From Symploca sp. SIO1C2 (GTDB lineage: Bacteria; Cyanobacteriota; Cyanobacteriia; Cyanobacteriales; Coleofasciculaceae): 56,029 bases of DNA. The translations under genes and the position numbers were made by a program. The DNA lies in contig JAAHFP010000042.1 in the NCBI GenBank assembly GCA_010672925.1, positions 1 to 56,029 of the forward strand, in the 5' to 3' direction. The notes beneath the pieces are model-generated. The model was not told the origin of the DNA. It saw only the letters and a program-made list of their open reading frames with translations, and searched no databases. Of this stretch, positions 1-55,849 are shown in pieces; position 1 is the first letter of the stretch, and each line of letters opens with the position of its first letter.

Positions 1-29
1 AGCGATAAATGTCAAAAATAGAGCGGTGG

Positions 30-128
30 GGCATCCCGTTCTTAAAGCTCAGTTAATGTCCGACGGGATACCGGGAGTCACTGAGAAGCCCACACTTACC
101 CGATAGGGAAGTGTGGGAGTATGTCACC
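30..128 (+). mobile_element. Probable right end of an IS200/IS605-type element, with omega-RNA-like structure
   Basis: Two stems are visible. CCCGT (35-39) pairs with ACGGG (63-67), and CCCACACTT (89-97) pairs with AAGTGTGGG (109-117). The second stem is followed by AGTATGTCAC. A 3'-terminal hairpin followed by a short conserved tail is how I remember the right ends of cyanobacterial IS200/IS605 (TnpB) elements, where the transcript end serves as guide-RNA scaffold. No tnpB is in the window, so it would lie to the left or be lost. Stems are seen directly; family is from memory. Confidence 0.45.
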
Positions 129-267
129 CAATTTACTGCCATATTCAAAGAACCTCCGCAAGATCAGAAGGAAGAGGATCAGCCACTCCCACTAAGAGTA
201 AAGGCTAAAACCCCTCCTTTCTAGTCTTTGGGAAAAACAACTCAGAATTATGCAATGATTTAGATTT

Positions 268-373
268 TATAGCAGTCGCCAGGGCGGTTAAGACATTTCT
301 CAAGTAAGGCAAGTTAGTTAACAAGGGGCTTAAGCCCCTTGTCTTTGTCCTAATCGCCTTGGTGGTTGCTATA
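268..373. mobile_element. MITE-like inverted-repeat element, TATAGC family, copy 1
   Basis: About 28-bp imperfect terminal inverted repeats begin TATAGCAGTCGCCAGGGCGG and end as its complement (...GGTGGTTGCTATA). A central palindrome reads AAGGGGCTTAAGCCCCTT. It is non-coding. Related copies lie at 26068-26162 and 30014-30109, and a half-site starts at 26496. The TA-rich termini would suit mobilisation by an IS630/Tc1-type transposase (inference). Confidence 0.75.
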
Positions 374-446
374 GATTTTAGATTTTAGATTTCACCTAAT
401 GGTACGACACACCTAAAAAAGTAAGCCCTTCTCATTCCCCATTCCC

Positions 447-480
447 CAAACAACAAACAACAAACAACAAACAACAATTT
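447..480. repeat. Heptamer (CAACAAA)n tract abutting the speA stop
   Basis: A period-7 CAACAAA tract runs directly into the speA stop codon at 481-483. It belongs to the short tandemly repeated (STRR-type) heptamers known from cyanobacteria, which recur through this window. Confidence 0.85.
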
Positions 481-2562
481 TCAAGACGGATAAGTATAAC
501 TGCTCAGACTCCGCTCATAGTTTTGCAATAGTAACTGAGATTCTTCAATAGTAATCTGGTGCTCTTGCAAAGCTTGCTCAGTGCGGCGGCGGACACTTTC
601 TAATAAATCTTCCGCATCATACTGCACATAACCCAAAACCTCTGTCACTGTATCTCCCTTCACCACCTGCTCAATTTCATAGCCTCTTGGTGTCAAGCGG
701 ATATGAACCGCATTAGTATCGCCAAACAGGTTGTGCAAATTGCCCATAATCTCCTGGTAGGCTCCTGCTAGGAATAAACCTAAATAATAGGGTTGTTTGT
801 TGTTGGTTATTGGTTGTTGGTTATTGGTTGTTGGTTGTTTGGGTATTCCTCCCCCATCTCCCCATCTTCCCATCTCCGCGTCCCCGCGTCCCCGCGTCTC
901 CGTGTCTTCCAATTCCCGGAGTGGATGTAACTCTAATACCGATTTAACATCCCGTAGGTCAATAAATTGATTAATCTTACCATCGCTGTCGCAAGTCAAA
1001 TCAGCGAGAGTACCTCGACAGGTGGGTTCTTCATCCAACCGGTGGATGGGCATAATGGGAAATAGCTGGTTAATTGCCCAGGAATCTGGTGCAGATTGGA
1101 AGACGGAGAGGTTGACGTAGTAAATCGACGCCATGATTTTTTCCAAATCTTCCAAGTCATCAGGGACATAATCCTGAGTCCTGGTAATTTCCAGAATCTT
1201 TTGACAACAGGCCCAGTAAAGCTGCTCAGATCTCGCTCGTTCAGTAATACTTAGATAACCCAGATTAAAGAGGCTTTTCGCTTCTTGATTGAATTGGATA
1301 GCATCGTGGTAAGCTTCCTGGTAATTGTCGACTTTGATGGTTTTGTAAGTTTCCCAGAGGTTGCGGATAATCGAATGCTCTTCTGCTTGAGGGATAGGGG
1401 TTTGGGATGCAACATCACTAGTACTAAGTACATCAAAAATAAGTACGGATTGATGAGACGCGATCGCACGACCACTTTCACTAATTAGTACTGGTGCTGG
1501 TATCTGACGGGTTTCACAAGCTTCCTTCACTGCTGCTACAATATCATTGGCATAGTTCTGCATACTGTAGTTTACTGAGGCATGGAAGTTAGTTTTGGAG
1601 CCGTCGTAATCTACTCCTAAGCCACCACCAACATCCAGATATTGCATCTTAGCCCCTAAGGATCTCAGTTCAACATAAATTTGGCTAGCTTCTCGAATCG
1701 CATCTTTAATCACACTAATAGCGGAGATTTGAGAACCCATGTGGAAGTGCAACAGCTGTAGGGATTCCAGCATCTCAGCTTCCCGTAATTGGTCAATGCA
1801 GGTGAGGATCTCAGGAATCGCTAAACCAAATATAGCGCGATCGCCGGTGGATTCTCCCCAACGTCCCGTACCTTGAGTACTAAGTTTTGCTCGGATTCCC
1901 AGTACTGGTTTAATCCCTAACTTCCTTGCTGCTTCAATGACCAGGAGCACTTCTTCAATTTGTTCCAGGACAATTATCGGTTGATGGCCAATCCGGGTAG
2001 CTAACAGTGCAGTTTCAATATACTCCCTGTCTTTGTAGCCATTACAAATTAGTAGGGAATTGGGAGTATTCAAGGTGGCTAGAGCAATGATCAATTCCGG
2101 TTTAGAACCTGCTTCCAAACCAAATTGGAAAGGTTGACCAAACTGCACCAAATCTTCTACCAGCTGTCGGTGCTGATTGCACTTGATCGGAAAGACTCCC
2201 TGGTAGGTATTAGGATATCTGTAGCGAGCGATCGCTTTGGCAAAACAGGCGTTTAAGCGCTCCACCCGGTCTGCTAAAATATCTGAAAAGCGGATTAATA
2301 GGGGCAATCCCAGGTTCCGTTGTTTCAGGGCACCCACTAATTCAAACAAATCCAAAGAGCCACCGCGATCGCCTTTGGGAGATACTGTAACATGACCAGC
2401 AGCATTGATGGAAAAGTAGGGCTCTCCCCACCCCTGAACTTGATAGAGTTTCTCACTGTCTTCAATTGTCCAGTTAAGCTGTGCCTTGCTGCCATTCTGC
2501 TGGCTTATTTCTGCTAGAGTGTTCTGACTGAGTTTGTCTTGTGTGTGAGCACTGATAGTCAT
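481..2562 (-). CDS. speA: Biosynthetic arginine decarboxylase, with an in-frame repeat insertion
   Basis: This PLP-dependent enzyme converts arginine to agmatine, the first step of the agmatine route to putrescine. The 693-residue protein has the SpeA architecture. An alanine-racemase-like barrel holds the PLP lysine region (GVFPIKCNQHRQ), the glycine-rich phosphate-binding segment (YLDVGGGLGVDYDG) and the ISESGRAI segment of the C-terminal domain. The end (YYLGLFLAGAYQEIMGNLHNLFGD) is also typical. Residues about 553-591 are low-complexity and are encoded by two dispersed DNA repeats (790-906) placed between the conserved LHPLR and YYLGLF blocks. I know no such insert in the family. The ATG at 2562 is followed at once by a good N-terminus. 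The catalytic core looks complete, so the enzyme may well be active. Confidence 0.95.
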   Translation of the reverse strand: MTISAHTQDKLSQNTLAEISQQNGSKAQLNWTIEDSEKLYQVQGWGEPYFSINAAGHVTVSPKGDRGGSLDLFELVGALKQRNLGLPLLIRFSDILADRVERLNACFAKAIARYRYPNTYQGVFPIKCNQHRQLVEDLVQFGQPFQFGLEAGSKPELIIALATLNTPNSLLICNGYKDREYIETALLATRIGHQPIIVLEQIEEVLLVIEAARKLGIKPVLGIRAKLSTQGTGRWGESTGDRAIFGLAIPEILTCIDQLREAEMLESLQLLHFHMGSQISAISVIKDAIREASQIYVELRSLGAKMQYLDVGGGLGVDYDGSKTNFHASVNYSMQNYANDIVAAVKEACETRQIPAPVLISESGRAIASHQSVLIFDVLSTSDVASQTPIPQAEEHSIIRNLWETYKTIKVDNYQEAYHDAIQFNQEAKSLFNLGYLSITERARSEQLYWACCQKILEITRTQDYVPDDLEDLEKIMASIYYVNLSVFQSAPDSWAINQLFPIMPIHRLDEEPTCRGTLADLTCDSDGKINQFIDLRDVKSVLELHPLRELEDTETRGRGDAEMGRWGDGGGIPKQPTTNNQQPITNNKQPYYLGLFLAGAYQEIMGNLHNLFGDTNAVHIRLTPRGYEIEQVVKGDTVTEVLGYVQYDAEDLLESVRRRTEQALQEHQITIEESQLLLQNYERSLSSYTYPS
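790..906 (-). repeat. Repeat insertion inside speA (about 39 codons)
   Basis: On the speA strand a GACGCGGG-type tract with GATGGGGA variants is followed by an (AACAACC/AACCAAT) heptamer tract. Both occur elsewhere between genes, for example CCGCGTCC units at 33716-33751 and heptamers at 9149-9190. Here they are translated as a Gly/Asp/Arg-rich stretch followed by a Gln/Asn/Thr/Pro-rich stretch, with no frameshift and no stop. Confidence 0.85.
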
Positions 2563-2665
2563 TGCAGGCTTTCAGCTTTACCCCCATCGTCTGTTTGCAT
2601 TGTTTGCATTGTATAGCAAAAGGCAGAGGGCAGAAGGGAAAAGATTTATACTCTGAAGAAACACT

Positions 2666-2715
2666 ATGGCTAATGGTTAATGGCTAATTGCTAATTGCTA
2701 ATGGCTAATTGCTAA
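2666..2715. repeat. Heptamer (TAATGGC/TAATTGC)n tract
   Basis: A period-7 tract lies between speA and the glycosyltransferase gene. It is the same family as the large array at 54489-54655. The rest of 2563-2852 holds no recognisable gene and must contain both divergent promoters. Confidence 0.8.
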
Positions 2716-2852
2716 GAAACACTAAGTCACCGAGTCAGGAGGGAATCAGTTCAATCATTTAATTCAATCCCTCTAGGCAAACTATAACTTACTCACTGGG
2801 AGTGCATCCCACCCTAAGATATCAATAGTATGGCGAATGACCTATAAGGTGT

Positions 2853-4025
2853 ATGAATGCAATTGTACTAGGAATTACTGTCCTCTCCCTAATTATTTGG
2901 CTGGGACTACTCGCTTTTCGGGGACAGTTTTGGCGGGCAAATCAGCGCCTGGAAGTTCCCACTAGTGAACTAGAATTATGGCCTAGGGTTTGTGCTGTAA
3001 TACCTGCACGTAACGAAGCTCAATTGCTACCAATAACCTTGCGATCGCTCTTTTCCCAAGACTATCCTGGTTCTTTGTCTGTAATCTTGGTAGATGACCA
3101 CAGTACTGATGGTACAGCTCAAGTGGCTCAAAAAGTTGCCCAGGAAGCCCAACAATCCCAACAGTTGCAAGTTATCTCGGCTCAAACATTACCCTCTGGT
3201 TGGACAGGAAAACTTTGGGCTTTGGAGCAAGGAATTCGTCATGCACAGCAGCAAACACCGCCACCAGACTATTTTTTGCTCACAGATGCAGATATTGAAC
3301 ATGAGAGTAGCAATCTACGAGAACTTATTACTAAAGGGGAAGCCCAGCAATTGGATTTGGTTTCTTTAATGGTACTGTTACGCTGTGAGAGCTTTTGGGA
3401 ACAGTTCCTGATTCCTGCCTTTGTCTTTTTCTTTCAAAAACTCTATCCTTTCCCCTGGGTAAATACTCCTACTAACTCTACTGCTGCTGCTGCTGGAGGT
3501 TGTATCTTGATTCGCCGCCAAGCTTTAAGCCGTATTGGTGGACTTCAGGTAGTGCGTCAAGCTTTAATCGATGATTGTGCTTTAGCCCAAGCCGTTAAAT
3601 CTAGCTCTCAATTTCATGGCATTTGGCTGGGATTGACTAAATTCACTCGCAGCTTGCGACCTTATCCTTCCCTAGCTAGTATCTGGGATATGGTTGCCCG
3701 CACTGCCTTTTACCAACTCAACTATTCCCCTTTGTGGTTACTGGGAACAGTAGTGGGAATGACTTTGATTTATCTAGTTCCTCCCATAGCTGTCATCTTC
3801 GGTACTTTAACTGGAAATTGGCTAATTGCGATCGCTGGTGTTTCGGGATGGTTACTGATGGCTGGAGCTTATTTACCAACTTTGCAACTATATCAATGTT
3901 CTCCCCTGTTAGCTTTCTGTTTACCCGCGATCGCTTTTCTCTATAATTTAATGACCCTAGACTCAGCGCTACGTCATTGGCAAGGGCGAGGTGGTAGTTG
4001 GAAAGGTCGAGTTTATTCGAGTTGA
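2853..4025 (+). CDS. hpnB: Family 2 glycosyltransferase, HpnB-like (hopene-associated)
   Basis: A 390-residue membrane glycosyltransferase. An N-terminal transmembrane helix (about 4-24) precedes a GT-A domain with the nucleotide-sugar motif VILVDDHSTDGTA (about 76-88), the DxD-type motif LLTDADIEH and the acceptor-side motif ALIDDCALAQAVK. Three or four hydrophobic segments close the protein. Length and layout match HpnB-type transferases, which are often linked to hopanoid genes. No hopanoid gene is nearby here, so the acceptor is uncertain. The ATG at 2853 is the first in frame. A perfect 38-bp palindrome downstream may end the transcript. Confidence 0.8.
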   Translation: MNAIVLGITVLSLIIWLGLLAFRGQFWRANQRLEVPTSELELWPRVCAVIPARNEAQLLPITLRSLFSQDYPGSLSVILVDDHSTDGTAQVAQKVAQEAQQSQQLQVISAQTLPSGWTGKLWALEQGIRHAQQQTPPPDYFLLTDADIEHESSNLRELITKGEAQQLDLVSLMVLLRCESFWEQFLIPAFVFFFQKLYPFPWVNTPTNSTAAAAGGCILIRRQALSRIGGLQVVRQALIDDCALAQAVKSSSQFHGIWLGLTKFTRSLRPYPSLASIWDMVARTAFYQLNYSPLWLLGTVVGMTLIYLVPPIAVIFGTLTGNWLIAIAGVSGWLLMAGAYLPTLQLYQCSPLLAFCLPAIAFLYNLMTLDSALRHWQGRGGSWKGRVYSS

Positions 4026-4373: not shown

Positions 4374-5972
4374 TCAATCAATACTCCTGGGATCTTTCTC
4401 CCAAATCACCACAAAGGTGTTATCCAGGTTAAATGGTCTAAAACTTACCAGACTTATATAGAACTCAGTCTTGTCTTTCTTTACTTTATATAACTCCGCA
4501 TCACCGTATACTTTGCCTAGTTCCTCAATTTCAAAGTCAAGTTCTTGGGTTAAAATAGGTTGCATGGAAAAATCATACAATGTCATTAGGTCTTTGGTAA
4601 TTCTTAATGAACCTAATGCTCCTGCCTTGAGTTGAGTTTCACTTTGAAAAAAGTACTCACGCTGTTCTGCTGCTATTTCTGAGTACGGTAAACTACGAAG
4701 AAATTTATCAATTTCCTCAGGAGTGTTAGTGTTGCTTACTACTATATTCCTTCTGAGTCTCCTCCTCAACTCTTCTAGAAGACTCTTTTCCCTAAAAGCA
4801 CAAATATCTTGGGGTTGGAAAGGACAGTTGTAATTAGTGATGGGATTATCAGTGAGTTCGAGCCAAATCAGACTATTTAATTGAGATAGGGGAGTTATAT
4901 CGGTTATTTTATTATCGCTGAGCCAGAGTTCACGTAGATTAGTTAATTGAGATAGGGGAGTTATATCGGTTATTTCATTGTTGCTGAGCCTGAGTTCAGT
5001 CAGATTAGTTAATTGAGATAGGGGAGTGATATCTCTTATTTTATTGTTGCTGAGCCTGAGTTCAGCCAAATTAGTCAATTGAGATAGGGAAGTGATGTCT
5101 GTGATTTCATTGTTTTTAAGGAAGAGCCAAGCTAGATTAGTTAATTGAGATAGGGGAGTTATATCTGTGATTTCATTGTCATTGAGCTCGAGTACAAGCA
5201 GATTAGTTAATCGAGATAGAGAAGTGATATCTCTTATTTTATGACCATCGAGCCTGAGTCTCTTCAGATTAGTCAATCGAGATAGGGGAGTTATATCTGT
5301 TATTTTATTGTTTTTGAGGAAAAGAGCAGTCAGGTTAGTCAATTGAGATAGGGTAGTGACATCTGCTATTTGATTGTTTTCGAGGAAAAGATAAGTCAGA
5401 TTAGTCAATCGAGACAGGGGAGTTATCTCTGTTATTTCATTGTCACCTAAATAGAGACTAGCCAGATTAGTCAATCGAGACAGGGGAGTTATCTCTGTTA
5501 TTTCATTGTCACCTAGATAGAGAGTAGTCAAATTAGTTAGTCGAGACAGGGGAGTTATCTCTGTTATTTCATTGTCATTGAGTTGGAGTTCAGTCAAATT
5601 AGTCAGCCGAGACAGGGGAGTGATATCTGTTATTTCATTGTTATTGAGTCTGAGTTGAGTCAGATTAGTTAATCGAGATAAGGGAGTGATATCCGTTATT
5701 TTCTCGTTATTGAGCTCAAGTTGAGTAATCTTTGATAATTTCACTCCTGCTGTTAAACAATCTTCAGCTTCAACTTCCTCCAGCAAAACTTCCACAGTAT
5801 ATCTGGCTTCTGCAGAAATACGCTCCTTATTCTCACACCATTGAGTAAAACTGCTGTAGTCCTCATTCTGTTTTGGCTGTACAGCACTCACTGGCAACAT
5901 ACCTGCTGTTACACTCAAGCAATAAGCTACACCGATACTAAATAGAGCATTTTTTCCAAATAGTAGGCTCAT
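4374..5972 (-). CDS. Leucine-rich-repeat secreted protein, 14 repeats (paralogue 2)
   Basis: About 532 residues. The start is a signal sequence (MSLLFGKNALFSIGVAYCLSVTAG). It has about 14 internalin-like 22-residue LRRs of the form LTNLxxLxLxxNxITDITPLSQ, then a conserved C-terminal domain of about 150 residues shared with the upstream gene. The ATG at 5972 overlaps the upstream stop by one base (TGATG), which suggests translational coupling; a TTG at 5975 is the alternative. Where its neighbour has a lipobox cysteine (LTAC), this protein has glycine (VTAG), so it should not be lipidated. Such LRR proteins usually bind other proteins. The partner is unknown. Confidence 0.85.
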   Translation of the reverse strand: MSLLFGKNALFSIGVAYCLSVTAGMLPVSAVQPKQNEDYSSFTQWCENKERISAEARYTVEVLLEEVEAEDCLTAGVKLSKITQLELNNEKITDITPLSRLTNLTQLRLNNNEITDITPLSRLTNLTELQLNDNEITEITPLSRLTNLTTLYLGDNEITEITPLSRLTNLASLYLGDNEITEITPLSRLTNLTYLFLENNQIADVTTLSQLTNLTALFLKNNKITDITPLSRLTNLKRLRLDGHKIRDITSLSRLTNLLVLELNDNEITDITPLSQLTNLAWLFLKNNEITDITSLSQLTNLAELRLSNNKIRDITPLSQLTNLTELRLSNNEITDITPLSQLTNLRELWLSDNKITDITPLSQLNSLIWLELTDNPITNYNCPFQPQDICAFREKSLLEELRRRLRRNIVVSNTNTPEEIDKFLRSLPYSEIAAEQREYFFQSETQLKAGALGSLRITKDLMTLYDFSMQPILTQELDFEIEELGKVYGDAELYKVKKDKTEFYISLVSFRPFNLDNTFVVIWEKDPRSID

Positions 5973-7768
5973 CAATCAATACTCCTGGGGTCTTTCTCCC
6001 AAATCACCACAAAGGTGCTAATGTTGTCAAATGAGCCAAAACCTACCAGACTTATATAGAACTCAGCCTCGTCCTTCTTTACCTGATATAACTCCGCATC
6101 ACCGTATACTGTGCCTAGTTCCTCAATTTCAAAGTCAAGTTCTTGGCTTAAAATAGGTTGCATGGAAAAATCATACAATGTCATTGGGTCTCCGGGAATT
6201 CTTAATGAACCTAATGCTCCTGCTTTGAGTTGAGTTTCACTTTGAAAAAAGTACCCACGCTGTTTTGCTGCGATTTCTGAGTACGGTAAACTACGGAAAA
6301 TTTCATCAATTGCCTCAGGAGTCTTTGTGCTGTATTGTATTAAATCTCTTCTGTTTCTCCGACTCAACTCTTCTAGAAGACTCTTTTCCTGAAAAATGCA
6401 AATATCTTGAGGCTGGACAGGACAGGTATAATTGTTGTTCGGATTATCAGTGAGTTCGAGCCAAGTCAGCTCAGTTAATTGAGATAGAGGAGTGATATCT
6501 GTTATTTTATTGTTATCGAGCCAGAGTTTCCCCAGATTAGTTAATTGGGATAGAGAAGTTATATCTGTTATTTGATTGTTATTGAGCCAGAGTTCACTCA
6601 GATTAGTTAATTGAGACAGGGAAGTGACATCTGTTATTTGATTATGATTAAGCCAGAGTTTATCCAGATTAGATAATTGAGAAAGGGGAGTTATATCTGT
6701 TATTTCATTATTTCTGAGCCAAACTCCAGTCAGCTTAGTTAATTGAGACAGGGAAGTTATATCTGTTATTTGATTGTCATTGAGCTCAAGAAAATTCAGA
6801 TTAGTTAATTGAGACAGTGGACTAATATCCGTTATTTCATTGTTATTGAGTCTGAGTCCAGCCAGATTAGTTAATTGAGATAGGGGAGTTATATCTGCTA
6901 CTTCATTTTCATTGAGTCCGAGTTCCCTCAGATTAGTTAATCGAGATAGGGGAGTTATATCTGCTATTTCATTATTACTGAGTACGAGCCAAGTCAGATT
7001 AGTTAATTGCGATAGAGAAGTGACATTTGTTATTTGATTACCATTGATCCAGAGTTCTCTCAGATTAGTTAGTTGAGAAAGGGGAGTTATATCTGTTATT
7101 TCATTATTACTGAGCCCAATATAATTTAGATTAGTTAATTGAGATAGGGGAGTTATATCTGTTATTTGATTATCGCTGCTCCAGAGTTCAGTCAAATTAG
7201 TTAATTTAGATAGGGGGGTTATATCTGTTATTTGATTATTTCTGAGCCAAACTCCAGTCAGATTAGTTAATTGAGATAGGGGAGTTATATCCGTGATTTG
7301 ATTATTTCTGAGCCAAACTCCAGTCAGATTAGTTAATTTAGATAAGGGAGTTATATCCGTGATTTGGTTACCATAAAGTGCGAGAGCAGTCAGATTAGTT
7401 AGTCGAGATAGAGGAGTTATATCCGTGATTTGGTTACCATGGAGCTCAAGTATAGTCAGATTAGTTAATCGAGATAGGGGAGTTATATCTATAATTTCCT
7501 TGTTATTGAGCACAAGTCTAGTAATCTTTGATAATTCGACTCCTGCTGTTAAACAATCTTCAGCTTTAACTTCCTCCAGTAACACTTCCACCGTGTGTCT
7601 GGCTTCAGCGGAAATGCGCTCTTTATTCTCACACCACTCTGTAAAACTGCTGTAGTCTTCATGCTGTTTTGGCTGTGCAGTACTCACTGGTGATGTACAT
7701 GCTGTTAAACTCAAGCAATAAGCTACACCTATACCAACTAGGGCATTTTTTCCGAATCGTAGGCTCAT
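5972..7768 (-). CDS. Leucine-rich-repeat lipoprotein, about 17 repeats (paralogue 1)
   Basis: About 598 residues. I place the start at the ATG at 7768, seven bases after GGAG (7776-7780). It begins the same MSLxFGKNAL signal as the downstream paralogue. The signal ends in the lipobox LTAC, so it is a predicted membrane-anchored lipoprotein. About 17 LRRs of 22 residues follow, mostly ITDITPLSQLTNL, then the shared C-terminal domain ending EKDPRSID. The repeats are very similar in DNA (66-bp period), and the different repeat numbers in the two paralogues suggest gain or loss by recombination. The function is not recognised. Confidence 0.87.
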   Translation of the reverse strand: MSLRFGKNALVGIGVAYCLSLTACTSPVSTAQPKQHEDYSSFTEWCENKERISAEARHTVEVLLEEVKAEDCLTAGVELSKITRLVLNNKEIIDITPLSRLTNLTILELHGNQITDITPLSRLTNLTALALYGNQITDITPLSKLTNLTGVWLRNNQITDITPLSQLTNLTGVWLRNNQITDITPLSKLTNLTELWSSDNQITDITPLSQLTNLNYIGLSNNEITDITPLSQLTNLRELWINGNQITNVTSLSQLTNLTWLVLSNNEIADITPLSRLTNLRELGLNENEVADITPLSQLTNLAGLRLNNNEITDISPLSQLTNLNFLELNDNQITDITSLSQLTKLTGVWLRNNEITDITPLSQLSNLDKLWLNHNQITDVTSLSQLTNLSELWLNNNQITDITSLSQLTNLGKLWLDNNKITDITPLSQLTELTWLELTDNPNNNYTCPVQPQDICIFQEKSLLEELSRRNRRDLIQYSTKTPEAIDEIFRSLPYSEIAAKQRGYFFQSETQLKAGALGSLRIPGDPMTLYDFSMQPILSQELDFEIEELGTVYGDAELYQVKKDEAEFYISLVGFGSFDNISTFVVIWEKDPRSID

Positions 7769-7866
7769 AAGACTAACTCCTGTAGGGATTTGGAGGAGTT
7801 TGGGGAGACAGGGGAGGTATTGACATTTCCCCATTTTAAATTAAACCTCTGGCGTAAATCCCGGAA

Positions 7867-9148: not shown

Positions 9149-9250
9149 TTTTGTTTGTTGTTGGTTGTTTGTTATTTGTTATTTGTTGTTTGGGAATGGG
9201 GAATGGAGAATTGAGAATTGAGAATTGAGAATTGAGAATTGAGAATTGGA
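9149..9250. repeat. Heptamer tracts between cupB and ndhD4
   Basis: TTTGTTR-type units (9149-9190) run straight into the cupB start codon. They are followed by TGAGAAT units (about 9205-9250). Confidence 0.85.
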
Positions 9251-9275
9251 GAATGGGAATGTACATATCTCCCCC

Positions 9276-9527
9276 AGCTTCCTCAGCTTCCTCAGCTCCC
9301 CCAGCTTCCCCAGCTTCCCCAGCTCCCCCAGCTCCCCCAGCTCCCCCAGCTCCCCCAGCTTCCTCAGCTCCCTCAGCTTCCTCAGCTTCCTCAGCTTCCC
9401 CAGCTTCCTCAGCTTCCTCAGCTCCCCCAGCTCCCCCAGCTCCCCCAGCTTCCTCAGCTCCCTCAGCTTCCTCAGCTTCCTCAGCTCCCCCAGCTTCCTC
9501 AGCTCCCCCAGCTCCCCCAGCTCCCCA
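9276..9527. repeat. 9-bp tandem array AGCTYCYYC, about 28 units
   Basis: Units AGCTCCCCC, AGCTTCCTC, AGCTTCCCC and AGCTCCCTC repeat with an exact 9-bp period from 9276 to 9527. The right end enters ndhD4 and encodes its last eight residues and stop. Because 9 is a multiple of 3, the array is open in several frames, but none looks like a real gene. Smaller arrays lie at 36814-36857, about 45480-45515 and 45590-45616. Confidence 0.93.
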
Positions 9528-11013
9528 CACTCCTGTAGGAAACGACGGAAGGTGACTCAATTACCATTGCTGCTGTTGTTGTTTCACTTAGTTTTACTAG
9601 CCATCCCGGCTGTAATCCTAAGACAACGATTAAAATGGCTAAAACAATTGCTGGGAGACGCTCACTCCAGTTGGCTGGGGGCAAATTGATCACTAATGCA
9701 GACAAACGACCAAAGAAGGCTTTCTCCATTAGAATCAAGTAGTAAACAGCGGTTAGGCCAGTACCAATCATACAGAGGATAGTTTGTATAGGGAAGATCG
9801 AGAAGCTACCCCGAAATACTAAGAATTCCGAGATAAATCCTACCATTCCAGGTATTCCCGCACTCGCCATTACTCCTACCACCATCAGGCTACCGGTGAT
9901 GGGCAAGCCTCTTTCCCAGTTGAAAAGCCCTTCAAGAACACCCAAATCCCGTGAGCCGGTCTTCTTATAAACAATACCTACTAGCAAAAATAATAGTCCA
10001 GAGATCAAACCATGACTCACCATTTGGAGAACCGCTGCAACTAGGGCAATTGGTGTCGCAGCAGCAGCAGCCAATAGAATATAACCCATGTGGGCTACAG
10101 AACTAAAAGCTACCATTTTTTTCATGTCCCGTTGAGCGATCGCATTGAAGGCACCGTACAGTGAACTTACCGCTGCCCAAATTGCTAGGGCAGGAGCTAG
10201 TAGAGCCCAACTATCAGGGAATAAGCCTAAGCCAAATCGTAATAGACCATAGGTTCCCAACTTTAGCAGTACCCCTGCCAAGAGAACAGAAATGGGGGTT
10301 GAAGCTTCAACGTGGGCATCTGGCAACCAGGTGTGGAAGGGTACTAAGGGAATCTTAATACCAAAACCAACTAAAATTGCCCCTAGTAGTAGCAACTGCT
10401 GACCTAAAGGTAGTAAAGATGCCAATTGTTGGGTTTCTAGGTAGGCAAAGCTAGAAGCACCACTCAAAAATCCGATACCGAGGAAGGCCGCTAGAACCAG
10501 TGCTCCGGAAACTGCTGTGTACAGGAGAAACTTGGTTGCTGCGTAACCTCGCCGTTTGCCTCCCCAAATGGCAATCAACAAATATAAAGGAATCAGTTCT
10601 AGCTCATAGAAGATGAAAAATAGTAGCAAATCTTGAGCCAGGAATGCACCAGCAACAGCAGAATTCAGTAACAGAATTAGGGCGTAATACAGCCGAGGAC
10701 GGGGTAAGTTTTCATCACTGCTGTGGATAGCAATTGCCGTAAGCAAACCATTGAGTACCAGCAATGGCATAGACAATCCGTCTACTCCCAGACTGTAGGT
10801 CAAACCTAAAGTATCAATCCAGGCAAAATACTCGCTGTATTGCATTTCTCCCACAGTCGGGTTAAATCCGAACAGTAAGACAATCGACCAAATAAAAGCA
10901 CCAATAGCAGTTGCCAATGCTACTTGACGGGCAACTTTAGGTGTGAAGGTGACCGGTAAAAATGCTACAAGCGCAGCAATTAATATCGGTACCCAAATTA
11001 AGGCACTTAGCAT
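9499..11013 (-). CDS. ndhD4: NDH-1 subunit 4 (NdhD4), proton-pumping membrane subunit
   Basis: A 504-residue antiporter-like subunit with about 14 transmembrane helices. Conserved features include the FYELELIPLYLLI segment with its glutamate, the loop lysine and histidine of IKIPLVPFHTWLPDAHVEA, and KMVAFSSVAHMGY. NdhD4 with NdhF4 and CupB defines the low-affinity CO2-uptake form of NDH-1. The D4 assignment rests on operon context. The last residues (VGSWGSWGS) and the TGA are encoded by the 9-bp array, so the native C-terminus has been replaced or extended. The ATG at 11013 directly follows a CAACAAA tract. Confidence 0.92.
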   Translation of the reverse strand: MLSALIWVPILIAALVAFLPVTFTPKVARQVALATAIGAFIWSIVLLFGFNPTVGEMQYSEYFAWIDTLGLTYSLGVDGLSMPLLVLNGLLTAIAIHSSDENLPRPRLYYALILLLNSAVAGAFLAQDLLLFFIFYELELIPLYLLIAIWGGKRRGYAATKFLLYTAVSGALVLAAFLGIGFLSGASSFAYLETQQLASLLPLGQQLLLLGAILVGFGIKIPLVPFHTWLPDAHVEASTPISVLLAGVLLKLGTYGLLRFGLGLFPDSWALLAPALAIWAAVSSLYGAFNAIAQRDMKKMVAFSSVAHMGYILLAAAAATPIALVAAVLQMVSHGLISGLLFLLVGIVYKKTGSRDLGVLEGLFNWERGLPITGSLMVVGVMASAGIPGMVGFISEFLVFRGSFSIFPIQTILCMIGTGLTAVYYLILMEKAFFGRLSALVINLPPANWSERLPAIVLAILIVVLGLQPGWLVKLSETTTAAMVIESPSVVSYRSVGSWGSWGS

Positions 11014-46523: not shown

Positions 46524-47824
46524 CTTTTATTAGCTAAATCCGCCTGTAAAAAGTCAATAAACTGCCTTGCAGTACGTCCAGAACGCCCATTGTGACGGGT
46601 CGCCCATTGCAAAGCTTGATATTCTAATTCTTCTTGGTTGATAGCGATTTCCTTGAGTTGAGCTAAATGGCGAATCATCTTTAAATAAGTATCTTGGTTA
46701 GCAGGTTCAAAGGTGAGGGTTAAGCCAAAACGATCGCTAAATGAGAGTTTTTCTTGCATTGTATCCCAGGCATTCACTTCATCCTGATCACTAGGACGGG
46801 GGCGATCCGCAAAAAATTCTCGCACCAAGTGCCTTCGGTTAGAAGTGGCATAAACTACTACATTAGAAGGACGAGCAGTAATATTCCCTTCTAACACAAC
46901 TTTCAAGGCTTTGAAGGTATCATCATCTTCCTCAAAGGAAAGGTCATCTACAAAAATGATGAATTTTTGTGGTACATCTCGCAGTTGTTCTACAATTGTT
47001 GGTAGAACTTGCAAATCAGATTTAGCAACTTCAACGATCCTGAGACCGCGATCGCGATATTTTGCTAGTAAACCTTTGACTAGAGAAGACTTTCCAGAAC
47101 CACGACTACCGTAAAGGAGAACGTGTAAAGCAGGGTGACCAGCCAGTAAAAATTCTGTATTTTTGATTAAAGTCGCCTTTTGGGACTCATAACCTACTAA
47201 TTCCTTCAACTGTGTAGAGTCAGGATGAGTAATTCCCACTAGTTGAGTTGAATGCCAGCGTAAAGCCTGATATTGAGCAAACAAGCCTGTGCCATATTTG
47301 TGGTAGTAAGCCGCTAAATCCTCTACTGCCTCTCCCCAGTTATCTAGCTGTTGCAGTTGACTACTCATGGAAGCAAAGGCTGGTTCCTCCTGCTGGGACT
47401 CTTGATGCCAAGGAATTGGGTCAGTAGAGCATTCAGATGCGACTTGCACCCAATAATACAATTGTTCGCCGGTGCATTGGTAAAGACCTTGCAAAGCTTG
47501 CAAGTCATGTTGTGCGGCGGCAGTCAAGGTAGGAGATAAGTTCTCTACTGATGTCAGTTGAGCTTGTTTGGAAAAAGGATTATCATCTAGGAGAATTTGC
47601 CTAAGCAGGTAATTTTGCCAAGTTTGACCCTCTGCCGCTAAAGCTTTAAACCAGCTACCGTAAGCTTGGAGGCAATTGAGTCCATCAGGATCACTATGAC
47701 GAATTGTTTGCAGTAGGTTAACAAAAGCAGTACCAACAGAGTCACCGAGAACATTTTGATAAAGTAACAGGGATGCTGCTTGGCGTTGGAGTAGTTGAAT
47801 AGAAGCAGTAGTTGGAGTAGTCAT
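46505..47824 (-). CDS. DUF815-family AAA+ ATPase
   Basis: 439 residues. Walker A GSRGSGKS (239-246), Walker B KFIIFVDDLSF (about 287-297), sensor-1 NVVVYATSNRRHLVREF and sensor-2-like NGRSGRTARQFIDFL mark the DUF815 predicted-ATPase family. The N-terminal 200 residues are helical. The role is unknown; family members are soluble. The end (RMGNGE, TAG) is encoded by a heptamer array. The 28-bp tandem array lies directly upstream, where its promoter would be expected. Confidence 0.9.
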   Translation of the reverse strand: MTTPTTASIQLLQRQAASLLLYQNVLGDSVGTAFVNLLQTIRHSDPDGLNCLQAYGSWFKALAAEGQTWQNYLLRQILLDDNPFSKQAQLTSVENLSPTLTAAAQHDLQALQGLYQCTGEQLYYWVQVASECSTDPIPWHQESQQEEPAFASMSSQLQQLDNWGEAVEDLAAYYHKYGTGLFAQYQALRWHSTQLVGITHPDSTQLKELVGYESQKATLIKNTEFLLAGHPALHVLLYGSRGSGKSSLVKGLLAKYRDRGLRIVEVAKSDLQVLPTIVEQLRDVPQKFIIFVDDLSFEEDDDTFKALKVVLEGNITARPSNVVVYATSNRRHLVREFFADRPRPSDQDEVNAWDTMQEKLSFSDRFGLTLTFEPANQDTYLKMIRHLAQLKEIAINQEELEYQALQWATRHNGRSGRTARQFIDFLQADLANKRMGNGE

Positions 47825-47846
47825 TCAGAACAATAGAAACAAACTC

Positions 47847-48165
47847 AATTGTGGAACTGGCATCCTGCCAGTAAAATTGTGGAACTGGCATCCTGCCAGT
47901 AAAATTGTGGAATTGTCATCCTGCCAGTAAAATTGTGGAACTGTCATCCTGCCAGTAAAATTGTGGAACTGGCATCCTGTCAGTAAAATTGTGGAACTGG
48001 CATCCTGCCAGTAAGATTGTGGAATTGTCATCCTGCCAGTAAAATTGTGGAACTGGCATCCTGCCAGTAAAATTGTGGAACTGGCATCCTGCCAGTAAAA
48101 TTGTGGAACTGGCATCCTGCCAGTAAAATTGTGGAATTGTCATCCTGCCAGTAAAATTGTGATCG
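47847..48165. repeat. 28-bp tandem array, eleven units plus a partial, each with a palindrome
   Basis: Units repeat with an exact 28-bp period (checked at 47847, 47875, 47903 and 48155). Each contains ACTGGCATCCTGCCAGT or the variant with TTGTCATCCTGCCAG. There are no spacers. The unit resembles the dispersed palindrome AACAGGCATCTTGCCTGT (20210, 48204, 50279). It starts about 23 bp upstream of the DUF815 start. It can be read in several frames but these are not genes. Confidence 0.93.
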
Positions 48166-48252
48166 GACATCTGGAGTGTTTGCGATCGCTCCTACAACTA
48201 TGACAGGCAAGATGCCTGTTCCACAATGTTGCTCCTCTCAGGTTTTTGTTGA

Positions 48253-48321: not shown

Positions 48322-48371
48322 TTGATGTGGAGGCCAAAACTCGACAACTGTAGATTATTAGGACAACCATT

Positions 48372-50120
48372 ATGAATCGCAATTTGCCCACCATTATTAA
48401 TGGTACTGCTGGGGATGACATCCTGGAAGGCACTCCAGGTATTGATAAAATTGTTGGTTTCGGAGGTAACGATATACTCCTAGGCAATGAGGGACATGAT
48501 TTTCTGTTTGGCAATGGGGGAAATGATACCCTCTTTGGTGGTGAGGGAGATGATTTTCTGTTGGGAGGTGTAGGAGAAGACAGCCTCTACGGAGATGATG
48601 GCAGTGATAACCTTAATGGCGGTGAAGGAGATGATCGTCTTTTTGGCGGTGATGGTAGTGATACCCTGGTTGGCGGTGAAGGGAATGATAATTTCATTGG
48701 TGGTACTGGTGCAGATTACTTCGATGGTGGTGAAGGACGTGATACCGTTGACTTCAGGACTGAGGGATTTGCTGTTACTGCGGACTTAAGTCAAAGTCGT
48801 GCCACTTATATTAATGATGCGGTCGTAGAAGTTGTTGAAACTTTGATTAATATTGAGCGCTTAGTTGGCACTGCTTTTGATGATACCCTGATTGGTGATG
48901 CAGAAAGTAACACTCTTATTGGTGTTGGCGGTAATGATATCCTGATTGGTGGTGCTAACAATGATCGCTTGCTGGGTGGTGCTGGTGCAGATTACTTCGA
49001 CGGTGGAGAAGGTAATGACATTGTTGAATTTCGAGAAAACTTTGCCATCACTGCTGACTTGAGTCAAGGTCGTGCTACTTATATTAATGATGCTGGGGTA
49101 GAAGTTGTTGAAACTTTGATTAATATTGAGCGCTTAGTAGGCACTGCTTTTGATGATACGCTAATTGGCGATAGCGCTGATAATACCTTACATGGAGAAG
49201 GTGGCAATGACATTCTCCTTGGTGGTGAGGGAAATGACATTCTTCTTGGTGGTACTGGTGTAGATTACTTTGATGGTGGTGAGGGAAGTGATACCGTTGA
49301 CTTCAGTAATGGGGAATTTGCTATTATCGGTGATTTAATTCAAAGTAGTGCTACTTATATTGATGATACGGGAGTAGAAGTAGTCGAAACTTGGCTTAAT
49401 ATTGAAAACTTAGTTGGCACAGCTTTTGATGATCAGTTAATTGGTGATGCCGGTGACAATACTTTAGATGGTGAAAATGGCAATGATACCATTCTTGGTA
49501 ATGAGGGAAATGATCATCTTATTGGTGGTACTGGGATAGATTACTTCGATGGTGGAGAGGGACGTGATACTGTTGACTTCCGCACTGAGGAGTTTGCGAT
49601 TAATGCTGACTTGAGTCAAAGTCGTGCTACTTATATTAATGATGAGGTCGTGGAAGTTATTGAAACTCTGATTAATATTGAGCGCTTAATCGGCACAGCT
49701 TTCGATGATACCCTGATTGGTGATGTAGAAAATAACAGCCTTACTGGTGCTGATGGTAATGATATCCTGATTGGTGGTGCTGGTAACGATCGCCTTTTTG
49801 GTGGTATTGGTGCAGATATCTTTGGCTTCTCCTCTCCCAACCAAGGAATTGATACCATTACTGACTTTAACTCCGCCCAAGGAGACCTAATTCAAGTACT
49901 TGGCAGTGGTTTTGGTGGCGGACTTACGGGAGGTGTGCTGGATTCAGACCAGTTTACCATCGGTTCCGCTGCTACTCAGGCAAGCGATCGCTTTATCTAT
50001 AACGATAACACCGGTGCTTTGTTCTTTGACCCTGATGGTACAGGTGCTGTGGCACAAATCCAGTTTGCTCAACTCTCTGGTGGTGTTGCTTTAACCAATA
50101 ATGACATTTTTGTTGTTTAA
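48372..50120 (+). CDS. RTX calcium-binding repeat protein (type I secreted), copy 1
   Basis: 582 residues. It starts [16 protein letters not shown] with no Sec signal. It has many GGxGxDxLx nonapeptide motifs (such as [11 protein letters not shown]) that bind Ca2+ in parallel beta-rolls, alternating with a repeated module ([16 protein letters not shown]...[21 protein letters not shown]). The C-terminal about 100 residues ([19 protein letters not shown]...) form a domain typical of type I secreted RTX proteins. No enzymatic domain is seen, so it is likely an S-layer, adhesion or matrix protein. Close paralogue of the next gene. Confidence 0.9.
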   Translation: MNRNLPTIINGTAGDDILEGTPGIDKIVGFGGNDILLGNEGHDFLFGNGGNDTLFGGEGDDFLLGGVGEDSLYGDDGSDNLNGGEGDDRLFGGDGSDTLVGGEGNDNFIGGTGADYFDGGEGRDTVDFRTEGFAVTADLSQSRATYINDAVVEVVETLINIERLVGTAFDDTLIGDAESNTLIGVGGNDILIGGANNDRLLGGAGADYFDGGEGNDIVEFRENFAITADLSQGRATYINDAGVEVVETLINIERLVGTAFDDTLIGDSADNTLHGEGGNDILLGGEGNDILLGGTGVDYFDGGEGSDTVDFSNGEFAIIGDLIQSSATYIDDTGVEVVETWLNIENLVGTAFDDQLIGDAGDNTLDGENGNDTILGNEGNDHLIGGTGIDYFDGGEGRDTVDFRTEEFAINADLSQSRATYINDEVVEVIETLINIERLIGTAFDDTLIGDVENNSLTGADGNDILIGGAGNDRLFGGIGADIFGFSSPNQGIDTITDFNSAQGDLIQVLGSGFGGGLTGGVLDSDQFTIGSAATQASDRFIYNDNTGALFFDPDGTGAVAQIQFAQLSGGVALTNNDIFVV

Positions 50121-50463
50121 TGCCGGTGATTAACCCGGTAGATACCCGCTGAGGGCGTATGCAATACGCCCCTACGATTGTGGTGTAGGGATGTGGAAAA
50201 ACCGGTTTCTTCTCCCCCGACAGTAGGGGCGCAATGCTTGCGCCCTCAATACTTGTCCCCTCTTAGTTCCTACAATTATGACAGGCAAGATGCGAAGTTC
50301 CACAATGGTTCGCCTCCCAGGTTTTTGTTGAGATATATTAAGAAATTTACCCGATTTTCCTACCCTAACTGCATAACTTGATTTTTGCATCCCTATTTAC
50401 TTTGTAGGGAGGTCAAAAGCCTCTAGCAAAACTCGACAACTGTAGATTATCAGGAGAGCCATT
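50121..50463. promoter_or_regulatory. Region between the RTX genes: palindromes and a duplicated promoter region
   Basis: It holds the palindromes GGGCGTAT-GCA-ATACGCCC (about 50155-50173) and GGGCGCAA-TGC-TTGCGCCC (about 50226-50244), which may act as terminators. A copy of the upstream element (about 50331-50400) precedes RTX gene 2 by 63 bp. The preceding 100 bp also match the region before gene 1, so the duplication included the promoter. Confidence 0.65.
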
Positions 50464-52755
50464 ATGAATCGTAATTTGCCCACCATTATCAATGGTACTG
50501 CTGGGGATGACAGTCTGGAAGGGACTTCCGGTATTGATAAAATTGTTGGTTTCGGAGGTAATGATATACTCCAAGGCAACGAGGGACATGATTTTCTGTT
50601 TGGCGATGCGGGAAATGATACCCTCTTTGGTGGTGAGGGAGATGATTTTCTGTTGGGAGGTATAGGAGAGGATAGCCTCAACGGGGATGGTGGCAGTGAT
50701 AACCTTAATGGCGGAGAAGGGAATGATCAGCTTTTTGGGGGTGATGGTAGTGATACCCTCTTTGGCGGTGCTGGTAATGATCAGCTTTATGGTGGTACTG
50801 GTGCAGATTATTTCAATGCTGGTGAAGGTAATGACATTGTTTACTTTCGAGGAGAAAACTTTGCCATCACTGCTGACTTGAGTCAAGGTCGTGCTACTTA
50901 TCTCAATGATGCAGGAGAGGAAGTTGTTGATACCTTGATCAATGTTGAACGCCTCTTTGGTACTACCTTAGATGATCAGTTAATTGGTGATGCTGGTAAT
51001 AATGATCTTCATGGAAGTGATGGTAATGATACTCTGATTGGAGGAGAAGGGAGAGATCGCTTATTTGGTGGTACTGGAGTAGATTACTTCGATGGTGGTG
51101 AAGGCAATGACATTGTTTACTTTCGAGGAGAAAAATTTGCTGTTACTGCTGATTTAACTCAAGGTCGTGCTACTTATATCAATGATGCAGGAGTGGAAGT
51201 TGTTGAAACCCTAATCAATGTTGAACGCCTCTTTGGTACTACCTTAGATGATCAGTTAATTGGTGATGCTGGTAATAATGATCTTCATGGAAGTGATGGT
51301 AATGATATTCTGATTGGAGGAGAAGGAAACGATCGCTTATTTGGTGGTACTGGTGTAGATTACTTTGATGGTGGTGAAGGTAACGACATTGTTTATTTTG
51401 AAGAAAACTCTGCTGTTACTGCTGACTTGAGTCAAGGTCGTGCTACTTATATTAATGATGCTGGAATAGAAGTTGTTGAAACCCTGATCAATATTGAGCG
51501 CTTAGTAGGCACTGCTTTCGATGATCAGTTGATTGGTGATGCCGGTAATAATGATCTTCATGGAATCGATGGTAATGATATTCTGATTGGAGGAGAAGGG
51601 AACGATCGCTTATTTGGTGGTACTGGGGTAGATTACTTCGATGGTGGTGAAGGTAATGACCTTGTTTATTTTGAAGAAAACTCTGCTGTTACTGCTGATT
51701 TGAGTCAAGGTCGTGCTACTTATATTAATGATGCTGGAATAGAAGTTGTTGAAACCCTGATCAATATTGAGCGCTTAGTAGGCACTGCTTTCGATGATCA
51801 GTTGATTGGTGATGCTGGTAATAATGATCTTCATGGAATCGATGGTAATGATATTCTGATTGGAGGAGAAGGGAACGATCGCTTATTTGGTGGTACTGGG
51901 GTAGATTACTTCGATGGTGGTGAAGGTAATGACCTTGTTTATTTTGAAGAAAACTCTGCTGTTACTGCTGATTTGAGTCAAGGTCGTGCTACTTATATTA
52001 ATGATGCTGGAATAGAAGTTGTTGAAACCCTGATCAATATTGAGCGCTTAGTAGGCACTGCTTTCGATGATCAGTTGATTGGTGATGCTGGTAATAATGA
52101 TCTTCATGGAATCGATGGTAATGATATTCTGATTGGAGGAGAAGGGAACGATCGCTTATTTGGTGGTACTGGGGTAGATTACTTCGATGGTGGTGAAGGT
52201 AATGACCTTGTTTATTTTGAAGAAAACTCTGCTGTTACTGCTGATTTGAGTCAAGGTCGTGCTACTTATATTAATGATGCTGGGGTGGAAGTTGTTGAAA
52301 CCCTGATCAATATTGAGCGCTTAGTAGGCACTGCTTTCGATGATCAATTAATTGGTGATGTTGGTGATAATGATCTTCACGGAAGCGATGGTAATGATAC
52401 TCTCCTTGGTGGCGCTGGTGATGATTTACTCGAAGGTGGTATTGGTGCAGATATCTTTGGTTTCTCTTCCCCCAACCAAGGAATCGATACTATCACTGAC
52501 TTTAACTCTACCCAAGGAGACCTAATTCAAATATCTGCCAATGGCTTTGGTGGTGGACTAACTATCGGTACATTGGATATCGACCAGTTTACCATCGGTT
52601 CCGCTGCTACTCAGGCAAGCGATCGCTTTATCTATAACGATACCACCGGTGCTTTGTTCTTCGACCCCGATGGTACAGGTGCTTTGGCACAAATCCAGTT
52701 TGCTCAACTCTCCGGTGGTGCTGCTTTAACCAATAATGACATTCTCGTTGTCTAA
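50464..52755 (+). CDS. RTX calcium-binding repeat protein (type I secreted), copy 2
   Basis: 763 residues, same start ([16 protein letters not shown]) and C-terminal domain as copy 1. It is longer because of extra 91-residue modules, each with [46 protein letters not shown] and [11 protein letters not shown]. Four modules (from 51358) are close to identical, with period 273 bp. No signal peptide or catalytic domain is visible. Expected to be exported by a type I system, which is not in the window. Confidence 0.9.
51358..52449 (+). repeat. Four 273-bp tandem repeats inside RTX gene 2
   Basis: GATTACTT(C/T)GATGGTGGTG recurs at 51358, 51631, 51904 and 52177, exactly 273 bp (91 codons) apart. 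Units 2 and 3 look nearly identical base for base. The previous module starts at 51082 (276 bp). This points to recent tandem duplication. The copy number may vary between strains and be collapsed in assemblies. Confidence 0.92.
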
Positions 52756-54500: not shown

Positions 54501-54655
54501 TGGCTAATGGCTAATGGCTAATGGCTAATGGTTAATGGCTAATTGATAATGGCTAATGGTTAATGGCTAATGGTTAATGGTTAATTGATAATGGCTAATG
54601 GCTAATTGATAATGGTTAATGGCTAATGGTTAATGGCTAATGGCTAATGGTTAAT
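54489..54655. repeat. Large TAATGGC heptamer array
   Basis: About 23 units of TAATGGC/TAATGGT/TAATTGA with a 7-bp period. It encodes the last residues (NG) and stop of the upstream gene. From about 54680 to 54727, GACAAA- and AATAACA-type units run to the next ATG. Confidence 0.92.
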
Positions 54656-54727
54656 TGGTAGTAGAAGCAAGGAATACAATGACGAAGGACAAACGACAAA
54701 GGACAAACAACAAATAACAAATAACAA

Positions 54728-55849
54728 ATGATGTTAGACCTTGAAGTGTTACAGGGAGAGATCATTCCCTTAGAGTCTGAATACTATACTCAGGCAATAG
54801 AAATTAGCGATCGCGTAGTTGAACCGGAAAGACAGTGGCAGGCTTATCTTAATATACTGGCTCTGCGGAGTTTTACCGAGTGGCTGGCAGCAAGGGCGGG
54901 AGATATAAGGGTCAATACAGCAGTTTGTTCCGCTGTGCATCCTGAATTAGCTCAGATGCCGGACTTAGTTTATCAACTCAGGGTTGGTGAATTTCAGGTG
55001 TGCTTGATTGCTAGGGAAAGCCTAATTGATAATCTCGTCAGAATCCCCAAAGAAGCGATTGAATTGACAGAGTTTGCTGCCCATTTTTATGTTATTATAG
55101 AAGTCTTGGAAGAAGAAGATCAAGCCAGCATCCGTGGTTTTCTACGTTATGACCAACTTCCCAAGGTTCAGGAGCTAACTAGATTAACAACAGCAGCAAA
55201 AGCTGGGATTTATGAGCTACCCCTAAATCTATTTGATACAAATCTCCATCACCTTTTACTAGGTTTATCCTTGCTAGAGCCTACAGCTTTGAGAATCAGG
55301 AGTCAACACACAACAAACAACAAACGACAAACAACCAACAACCAACAACAAATCAATGTTGCCGTTTGGTTAAGGGAAGAAATTGATCAAGTAGCGAGGA
55401 GCTTAGGGTGGGGAATGCCTGGAACTCTGACCCCTGCTGTGGCCACTGGATGGCGCTCTACTGAACATTTTACTGGTGCGATCGCGAACTTAATTAACCA
55501 AGGTTTAAATATTCCTCCAGAAGCCCGTGGTTCTTGTCAAAAAATATCTGTTGATGAGATTCCTTTACAACTTTTTGCTGCGGTGTGGCGGTTAATGGCA
55601 GAAGAGCCTAAGGAAGAATGGTCATTACTGTTAATTTTAGGTACAGATTCCGGTGGCTTCTTACCCCAAGGTATTAAGTTACAAGTTGCGGATCAAACCG
55701 AGATTATCTCTGAGCGATTGCTGGGAACCCAAGACTTTTATCTAGCTAGTCGTGTAGTGGGGGATTTAGATGAGCAGTTTTTGGTCACTATTACTCTTAA
55801 TGGTAAGGAGTTGAAGTTACCTCCCTTTGTCTTTTCTCCTAATTCTTAA
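54728..55849 (+). CDS. DUF1822 family protein with a repeat-encoded insertion
   Basis: 373 residues. The start MMLDLEVLQGEIIPLESEYYTQAIEIS, the central EEDQASIRGFLRYDQL and the C-terminal VADQTEIISERLLGTQDFYLASRVVGDLDEQFLVTI are DUF1822. Residues about 192-209 (SQHTTNNKRQTTNNQQQ) are encoded by CAACAAA-type heptamers (55301-55354) and sit between two conserved halves. DUF1822 genes are often followed by a CHAT-domain gene; here the window ends. The ATG at 54728 follows AATAACAA repeats directly. Confidence 0.83.
   Translation: MMLDLEVLQGEIIPLESEYYTQAIEISDRVVEPERQWQAYLNILALRSFTEWLAARAGDIRVNTAVCSAVHPELAQMPDLVYQLRVGEFQVCLIARESLIDNLVRIPKEAIELTEFAAHFYVIIEVLEEEDQASIRGFLRYDQLPKVQELTRLTTAAKAGIYELPLNLFDTNLHHLLLGLSLLEPTALRIRSQHTTNNKRQTTNNQQQINVAVWLREEIDQVARSLGWGMPGTLTPAVATGWRSTEHFTGAIANLINQGLNIPPEARGSCQKISVDEIPLQLFAAVWRLMAEEPKEEWSLLLILGTDSGGFLPQGIKLQVADQTEIISERLLGTQDFYLASRVVGDLDEQFLVTITLNGKELKLPPFVFSPNS
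55301..55354. repeat. Heptamer repeat insertion inside the DUF1822 gene
   Basis: CAACAAA/CGACAAA/CAACCAA units with a 7-bp period are read in frame as a Thr/Asn/Gln-rich segment of about 18 residues. Confidence 0.85.

Follow-up and report, generated by a model that had tools for sequence, protein, structure and literature searches.

The speA locus and its repeat-coded linker

We analyzed a stretch of 56,029 nucleotides (referred to as the window) on contig JAAHFP010000042.1 of Symploca sp. SIO1C2, a draft genome of 245 contigs and 8.7 Mb, focusing on tandem repeats that are read in frame inside speA, the gene for biosynthetic arginine decarboxylase. speA occupies 484..2562 on the minus strand and encodes 693 aa in a frame that is open throughout, with the stop codon at 481-483. 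The protein matches the NCBIfam arginine decarboxylase model PRK05354 at 923.5 bits (cut-off, 369) in a single stretch covering residues 26-691 of 693. The matches to TIGR01273 and to 3NZQ, which we take to be the solved structure of the Escherichia coli enzyme, are each split into two stretches, and the break in the 3NZQ match falls at a linker, between chain positions 545 and 548. This variable linker lies between the conserved LHPLR and YYLGLF blocks (residues 550-591, 42 residues; 790..915, minus strand). Within it, a segment of 39 codons at 790..906 on the minus strand (DTETRGRGDAEMGRWGDGGGIPKQPTTNNQQPITNNKQP) consists of octamer and heptamer arrays in one uninterrupted frame, bearing out the in-frame repeat segment that a sequence-only reading of the window had reported here. 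Our period detector placed the same insert at 791-907.

The insert is a composite. Its 5' part on the coding strand, module A (851..906, minus strand), is made of G-rich octamers of the GGGGACGC and GGGGAGAT type and is read as TRGRGD/GEMGRWGD. A ten-base junction, AGGAATACCC (841..850, minus strand), separates it from module C (791..840, minus strand), in which the AAC-rich heptamers CAAACAA, CCAACAA, and CCAATAA encode QPTTNNQ. At other loci, the position of the junction is often held by heptamers of the AATTCCC type (module B). Directly 3' of the speA stop codon, a spacer array at 429..480 on the minus strand contains the same kinds of heptamers as module C. AlphaFold models of SpeA built from 40 and 73 alignment rows reached a mean predicted local distance difference test (pLDDT) score of only 63 and 61, respectively, and were poor around the insert, which the sequence-only reading had suggested would be a surface loop; pLDDT was below 50 over residues 482-637 in the 40-row model and over nearly the same stretch in the 73-row model. 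An Rfam search of window positions 1-4000 returned no RNA family match.

The SpeA linker across relatives

We aligned 73 SpeA proteins, comprising that of the window and those from 72 of 80 fetched loci. In the fetched relatives, the linker ranges from 4 aa or less (typically PGEP) up to 82 aa; it is about 4 aa or shorter in 35 of the 73 proteins and exceeds 4 residues in the other 38. A tandem period of 7 or 8 nt was detected in 10 of the 73 linkers, compared to none of 939 control pieces taken upstream in the same speA genes. On a FastTree phylogeny of SpeA built without the linker, this repeat label requires at least four changes, although 25 of the 70 inner branches are weak. Two congeners (L038 and L039) carry the same kind of repeat in linkers of 46 and 82 aa with other unit numbers, and comparably long linkers in which no repeat was detected also occur in the family, at 38 aa (L050) and 44 aa (L045 and L047). 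Because repeat-free linkers of similar length exist, the length of this region is so variable, and the congeners are themselves repeat bearing, the linker probably predates the repeats that filled it.

These comparisons change how the insert is best described. The sequence-only reading had pictured conserved blocks split by the repeat segment and had named absence of the insert from relatives as support. Such absence holds for the 35 proteins with minimal linkers but not for the two congeners, and the place itself is a linker of very variable length rather than an intact block. The repeat-free linkers of 38 and 44 aa also touch on the case named there as speaking against an insertion, namely, a nonrepetitive segment of equal length at this site in related proteins.

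Dispersal and reading frame of the repeats in the genome

The octamer pair CCCCATCTCCCCATCT, allowing at most one mismatch, has 235 genomic occurrences, split about evenly between the strands (121:114), whereas the reversed control pattern has none. Together with the 10 of 73 linkers and 0 of 939 controls described above, this census means that the SpeA insert is not a chance resemblance. A search of the same genome with SpeA matched other long open reading frames (ORFs) through the insert alone. We therefore surveyed 80 stretches of this genome, of which 52 lie at zero-mismatch octamer places (L178-L229; drawn from 100 of the 235 places) and 28 at peptide matches (L230-L257). Together with the window, these cover approximately 707 kb, small overlaps included, in which the period detector identified 311 repeat segments. 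A segment was considered flanked if, on one strand, the frame to either side of it stayed open for a minimum of 100 codons (60 codons where the locus ended). Whereas 236 segments lack long open frames on both sides in this sample, which was chosen for A arrays and peptide matches, 75 are flanked, and among the latter, 66 keep the frame and contain no stop. These 66 segments sit in 42 ORFs as counted, two of which are possibly one ORF in overlapping loci.

The frame statistic is given for the sample not chosen by frame, consisting of the window and L178-L229. Of its 53 flanked segments, 47 maintain the frame without a stop, compared to 11.4 expected from random frames (P = 8e-17 against one-third, in a test that treats segments as independent, although these 47 are spread over 30 ORFs); the window contributed two of the 47 and one of the six exceptions. 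In all nine exceptions of the complete survey, the frame coming from upstream ends after 3 to 26 nt of the array, and a start codon is located in the interval from 87 nt before to 19 nt beyond the array end, so that these arrays look like spacers between two genes. No conserved gene was clearly broken by an array in this nonexhaustive sample; the nine candidates were judged from the positions of stops and starts, and the requirement for long open frames on both sides misses copies near gene ends.

Composition, order, and orientation of the modules

The repeats often form a composite that runs from octamers (A), often through nonamers and AATTCCC heptamers (B), to AAC-rich heptamers (C). The A, B, and C units each yield one peptide cycle, whichever sense frame is read (GEMGRWGD, PNSQFPI, and QTTNNK/PTTNNQ, respectively), whereas the nonamer peptide depends on frame, and all three possibilities (GRQ, GDK, and ETR) were observed. 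No sense frame of the A, nonamer, or B units contains a stop, nor does any sense frame of C units lacking TAA and TGA. The sense peptides are hydrophilic (Q, N, T, G, D, R, and K), while the antisense reading of C is hydrophobic (LLVVGCW).

Wherever A and C arrays occur within 80 nt of each other, they share a strand and C follows A (20 of 20 pairs). Ten of these pairs come from stretches chosen solely by the A pattern, one from the window, and nine from stretches chosen by peptides that themselves run from A to C. Most A arrays (53 of 73) have no C array inside 80 nt. A moderate consensus of the AATTCCC type precedes the 120 C arrays examined.

Inside genes, orientation is strongly skewed. 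In the sample not chosen by frame, sense and antisense copies number 25:1 for A, 10:0 for B, and 21:0 for C (56:1 overall), and the single antisense A copy appears to lie in the PMT_2 protein gene of L217. Stop-making C units, containing TAA or TGA, account for 19 of 121 units in genes but 87 of 187 outside (P = 2e-8). Judged from these sequence patterns, copies within genes have likely been under selection for frame, orientation, and absence of stops.

Host genes

Twenty carrier proteins were scanned against Pfam, 10 of them also against NCBIfam, and families could be named for 17; the scans gave no family match for the carriers in L230, L199, and L185. The carriers include LpxB, MurD, apolipoprotein N-acyltransferase (Lnt), PriA, MutL, and RecJ. 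Also among them are SpeA, a FabF-like ketoacyl synthase, magnesium chelatase H (ChlH, with repeats at two sites), and a CbiG-methylase fusion, and further carriers are a GH38 mannosidase, a GFO/IDH oxidoreductase, NFACT, a CheA-like kinase, a hybrid histidine kinase, a PMT_2 protein, and a DUF1822 protein. Genes of such kinds are generally considered essential. The proposal that these repeats can enter conserved genes with the frame kept is thus upheld well beyond speA, for MurD, LpxB, PriA, and others. The accompanying statement that they otherwise lie between genes fails both elsewhere in the genome, where in-frame copies are many, and within the window itself: a 373-aa DUF1822 protein gene (54728..55849, plus strand) is its second repeat-bearing gene, with an in-frame module C array (QHTTNNKRQTTNNQQ) at 55304..55349 on the plus strand.

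The window contains several other repeats. Near the DUF1822 gene, an array of 14-nt units, each of two heptamers (AATGGCTAATGGTT), occupies a spacer at 54478-54687. A long 9-nt array of the CCCCAGCTT type lies between two minus-strand ORFs at 9224-9583 and overlaps the end of one, and direct repeats spaced 28 nt apart (11 register positions) are found mainly in a spacer at 47792-48217. Two adjacent minus-strand ORFs at 4374-7834 have internal 66-nt (22-codon) repeats with 27 register positions, and their 3' ends are 91% alike over 300 nt. Two further ORFs at 48335-52755 have internal repeats of 273/276 nt and starts 92% identical over 300 nt, for which gene duplication is likely. Inverted dispersed copies of 49 to 75 nt (26088-26162/30014-30088 and 268-316/30061-30109) possibly represent a small mobile element.

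Repeat sites in congeners and other genomes

We compared the joined flanks of eight sites, along with SpeA and MurD, between genomes by eye. In the congeners, each of the 14 sites that could be assessed has this kind of repeat at the corresponding position, and the shared sites differ in unit number and composition. The frame remainder is zero in all rows of the eight-site comparison. In two other genera of the family, none of the 13 assessable sites of the eight-site set has B or C peptides, and most linkers there are unrelated; one genome (G007) shows a repeat of its own at the second ChlH site. No reading was obtained for LpxB and the CBS site in the congeners, for MurD and RecJ in G002, or for NFACT in G007. 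The natural reading of these sequences is that the repeats would have entered before these congeners diverged and that their units then turned over.

An order-wide search matched the composite peptide in at least 32 of 120 genomes. The Symploca genome alone has at least 51 matches, many in long frames, while among the matches listed for other genomes, those inspected by eye are mostly in short frames, with exceptions in G060 (1112, 1006, 732, and 611 aa) and G003 (1092 aa). Separately, the MurD linker of G004 (L261) contains an inverted repeat (GTAGAGACGCGACATGTCGCGTCTCTAC), so that palindromic repeats are also readable in frame there.

Origin of the SpeA insert

These tandem repeats, which often form a composite, have dozens of copies in frame in genes, including the SpeA insert, and we consider it likely that they were shaped by spread, by selection in permissive linkers, and by turnover. 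Under such a scenario, the composite would spread to new places via recombination or template switching. Copies that break genes or are read as the hydrophobic antisense peptide would be lost by purifying selection, while those landing in linkers that tolerate them, as in SpeA, would survive, and the surviving arrays may then lengthen or shorten through slippage and exchange between arrays. Most likely, the repeat peptide is simply tolerated and does nothing in its own right. A broader proposal, which we offer tentatively and to which we give somewhat less than even weight, is that these are linker-coding elements spreading genus-wide that can enter genes in any frame because their units of 7, 8, and 9 nt are mostly stop-free in the sense frames. 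The filter would then be limited to total length and orientation, and the linkers of the core proteome, including enzymes of replication and repair, cell wall, and chlorophyll synthesis, would have been lengthened.

Several observations weigh against spread followed by selection. The stop test is weak for 47 of the 66 in-frame segments, since two or even all three of their frames lack stops. Sampling favored places with A arrays, so the share of affected genes does not represent the genome as a whole. None of the compared sites proved to be cleanly empty between identical flanks, which would have been a direct sign of movement, and at the far ends of the arrays we detected no consensus beyond leftover repeat units, that is, no conserved outer ends. 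At ChlH site 1, relatives have approximately 17 native residues, so there the repeats replaced a linker rather than cleanly splitting a block. Inheritance explains the sites that the congeners share no less well than repeated entry does. The native SpeA linkers of L040 and L049 already contain different heptamer repeats, and LpxB and PriA of G003 hold G-rich repeats resembling A; growth in place therefore contributes. Finally, translation and activity of the repeat-bearing proteins are presumed from open frames and conservation alone.

That growth in place accounts for the whole pattern, with seed motifs of native linkers expanded by slippage without any insertion and the likeness between genes due to gene conversion or convergent composition, is in our view unlikely. 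It would suit the variability of linkers in the family, several relatives of which have other heptamer repeats there, and the differing unit numbers between congeners. Independent growth is disfavored because the fixed order of A then C, often with nonamers and B between, recurs in 20 of 20 pairs at unrelated loci inside and outside genes, and C arrays moreover have a common upstream consensus of the B type. Another reading is a mobile element with its own machinery, such as a miniature inverted-repeat transposable element (MITE) or a repeat of the Rickettsia palindrome kind, with a transposase acting on its ends. In-frame copies dispersed in unrelated genes, as described for Rickettsia in passages of PMC10969869, are what such an element would leave. 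We nonetheless regard it as quite improbable, since four of five inserts tested have no inverted repeats of at least 9 nt and the fifth has a weak 70% pair, folding resembles that of shuffled sequences in three of the five (z of about -1) while being clearly better in two (-3.5 and -4.0), and conserved outer ends are lacking.

Retention of the repeat peptides for a function, for example, as flexible tethers or in condensate formation, might be read from their hydrophilic composition across many proteins and from the orientation bias. There is little chance that this is the explanation, as composition is dictated by the DNA units, length and sequence vary widely between congeners, and similar arrays fill spacers. 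Least probable of all, to the point of being barely credible, is an artefact of misassembly or decayed genes. The assembly is a draft of 245 contigs, and short reads struggle with tandem arrays, but separate congener assemblies show in-frame repeats at the same sites, which also speaks against the assembly error that the sequence-only reading had allowed for. Coding sequence is conserved on both sides of the arrays, and the nine exceptions resemble spacers rather than broken genes.

On balance, spread followed by selection and turnover implies that junk-like repeat DNA appears to lengthen loops of core proteins in this cyanobacterium. If this is true, repeat DNA normally taken for spacer filler is reshaping core-enzyme linkers across a large genome of a cyanobacterium, a phenomenon that, to our knowledge, has a counterpart of comparable scale only in the Rickettsia palindromic elements (RPEs). 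Three congeners with shared sites and differing arrays provide a natural series for studying how proteins acquire linkers, for how long tolerated junk is retained, and by what route repeats lacking recognizable transposon ends disperse. Repeat-bearing enzymes could also be misannotated or trimmed.

Comparison with known repeat systems

Short tandemly repeated repetitive (STRR) sequences of cyanobacteria were reportedly described by Mazel in 1990, and Vioque is said to have found one inside the RNase P RNA gene in 1997. STRR sequences are tandem heptamers present in many dispersed copies in filamentous cyanobacteria. Modules B and C resemble them as tandem heptamers. The repeats of this genome are likewise dispersed in many copies (235 places of the octamer pair, and 311 segments in approximately 707 kb), and here too they are mainly intergenic, with 236 of 311 segments plus nine spacer-like ones compared to 66 in ORFs, in a sample chosen for A arrays and peptides. 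The repeats described here differ in having an 8-nt module A and a 9-nt nonamer joined to the heptamers in fixed order and, as STRR sequences are usually defined, in having in-frame copies inside many core enzymes.

In Nostoc sp. PCC 7120, tandem GGGGA(C/T)T repeats occur on both strands and are 68% intergenic, with a notable part intragenic, according to passages of Rehm 2015 (PMC4692102). They are likewise G-rich, tandem, and partly intragenic, as far as those passages describe them, but their coding-strand tendency is the opposite, as the G-rich array here is on the coding strand at 25:1. The same passages contain no analysis of in-frame linkers or of a composite order. Among other coding repeats, PARCEL elements are described in parts of PMC2996958 as 25-residue amphipathic units with dyad symmetry in ORFs without assigned functions. 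Going by those parts, they share with the present arrays the nature of repeat DNA with coding capacity that is shuffled within genomes, and they differ in that the repeats here lie in linkers of core enzymes. Among the titles and abstract beginnings found in an open-licence library, and in the portions of PMC4748335 and PMC4907049 considered, we found nothing on composite in-frame repeats in cyanobacterial core enzymes, which does not show that they are absent from print.

The five inserts do not qualify as MITEs for want of terminal inverted repeats, and the arrays in general show no shared outer ends. The five inserts also do not qualify as RPEs by the palindrome or stable hairpin, given that four of the five have no inverted repeats and folding differs little from shuffles in three (z of about -1) but is stronger in two (-3.5 and -4.0). 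As presented in passages of PMC10969869 and PMC3733652, RPEs are palindromes of approximately 150 bp that are inserted in frame in conserved genes of unrelated kinds, and each RPE specifies a conserved peptide. The arrays of Symploca, according to what these passages report, resemble RPEs in being dispersed in frame among unrelated conserved genes and read as an extra peptide (66 segments in 42 ORFs), and they differ in being tandem, variable in length, and nonpalindromic, in an 8.7-Mb cyanobacterial genome.
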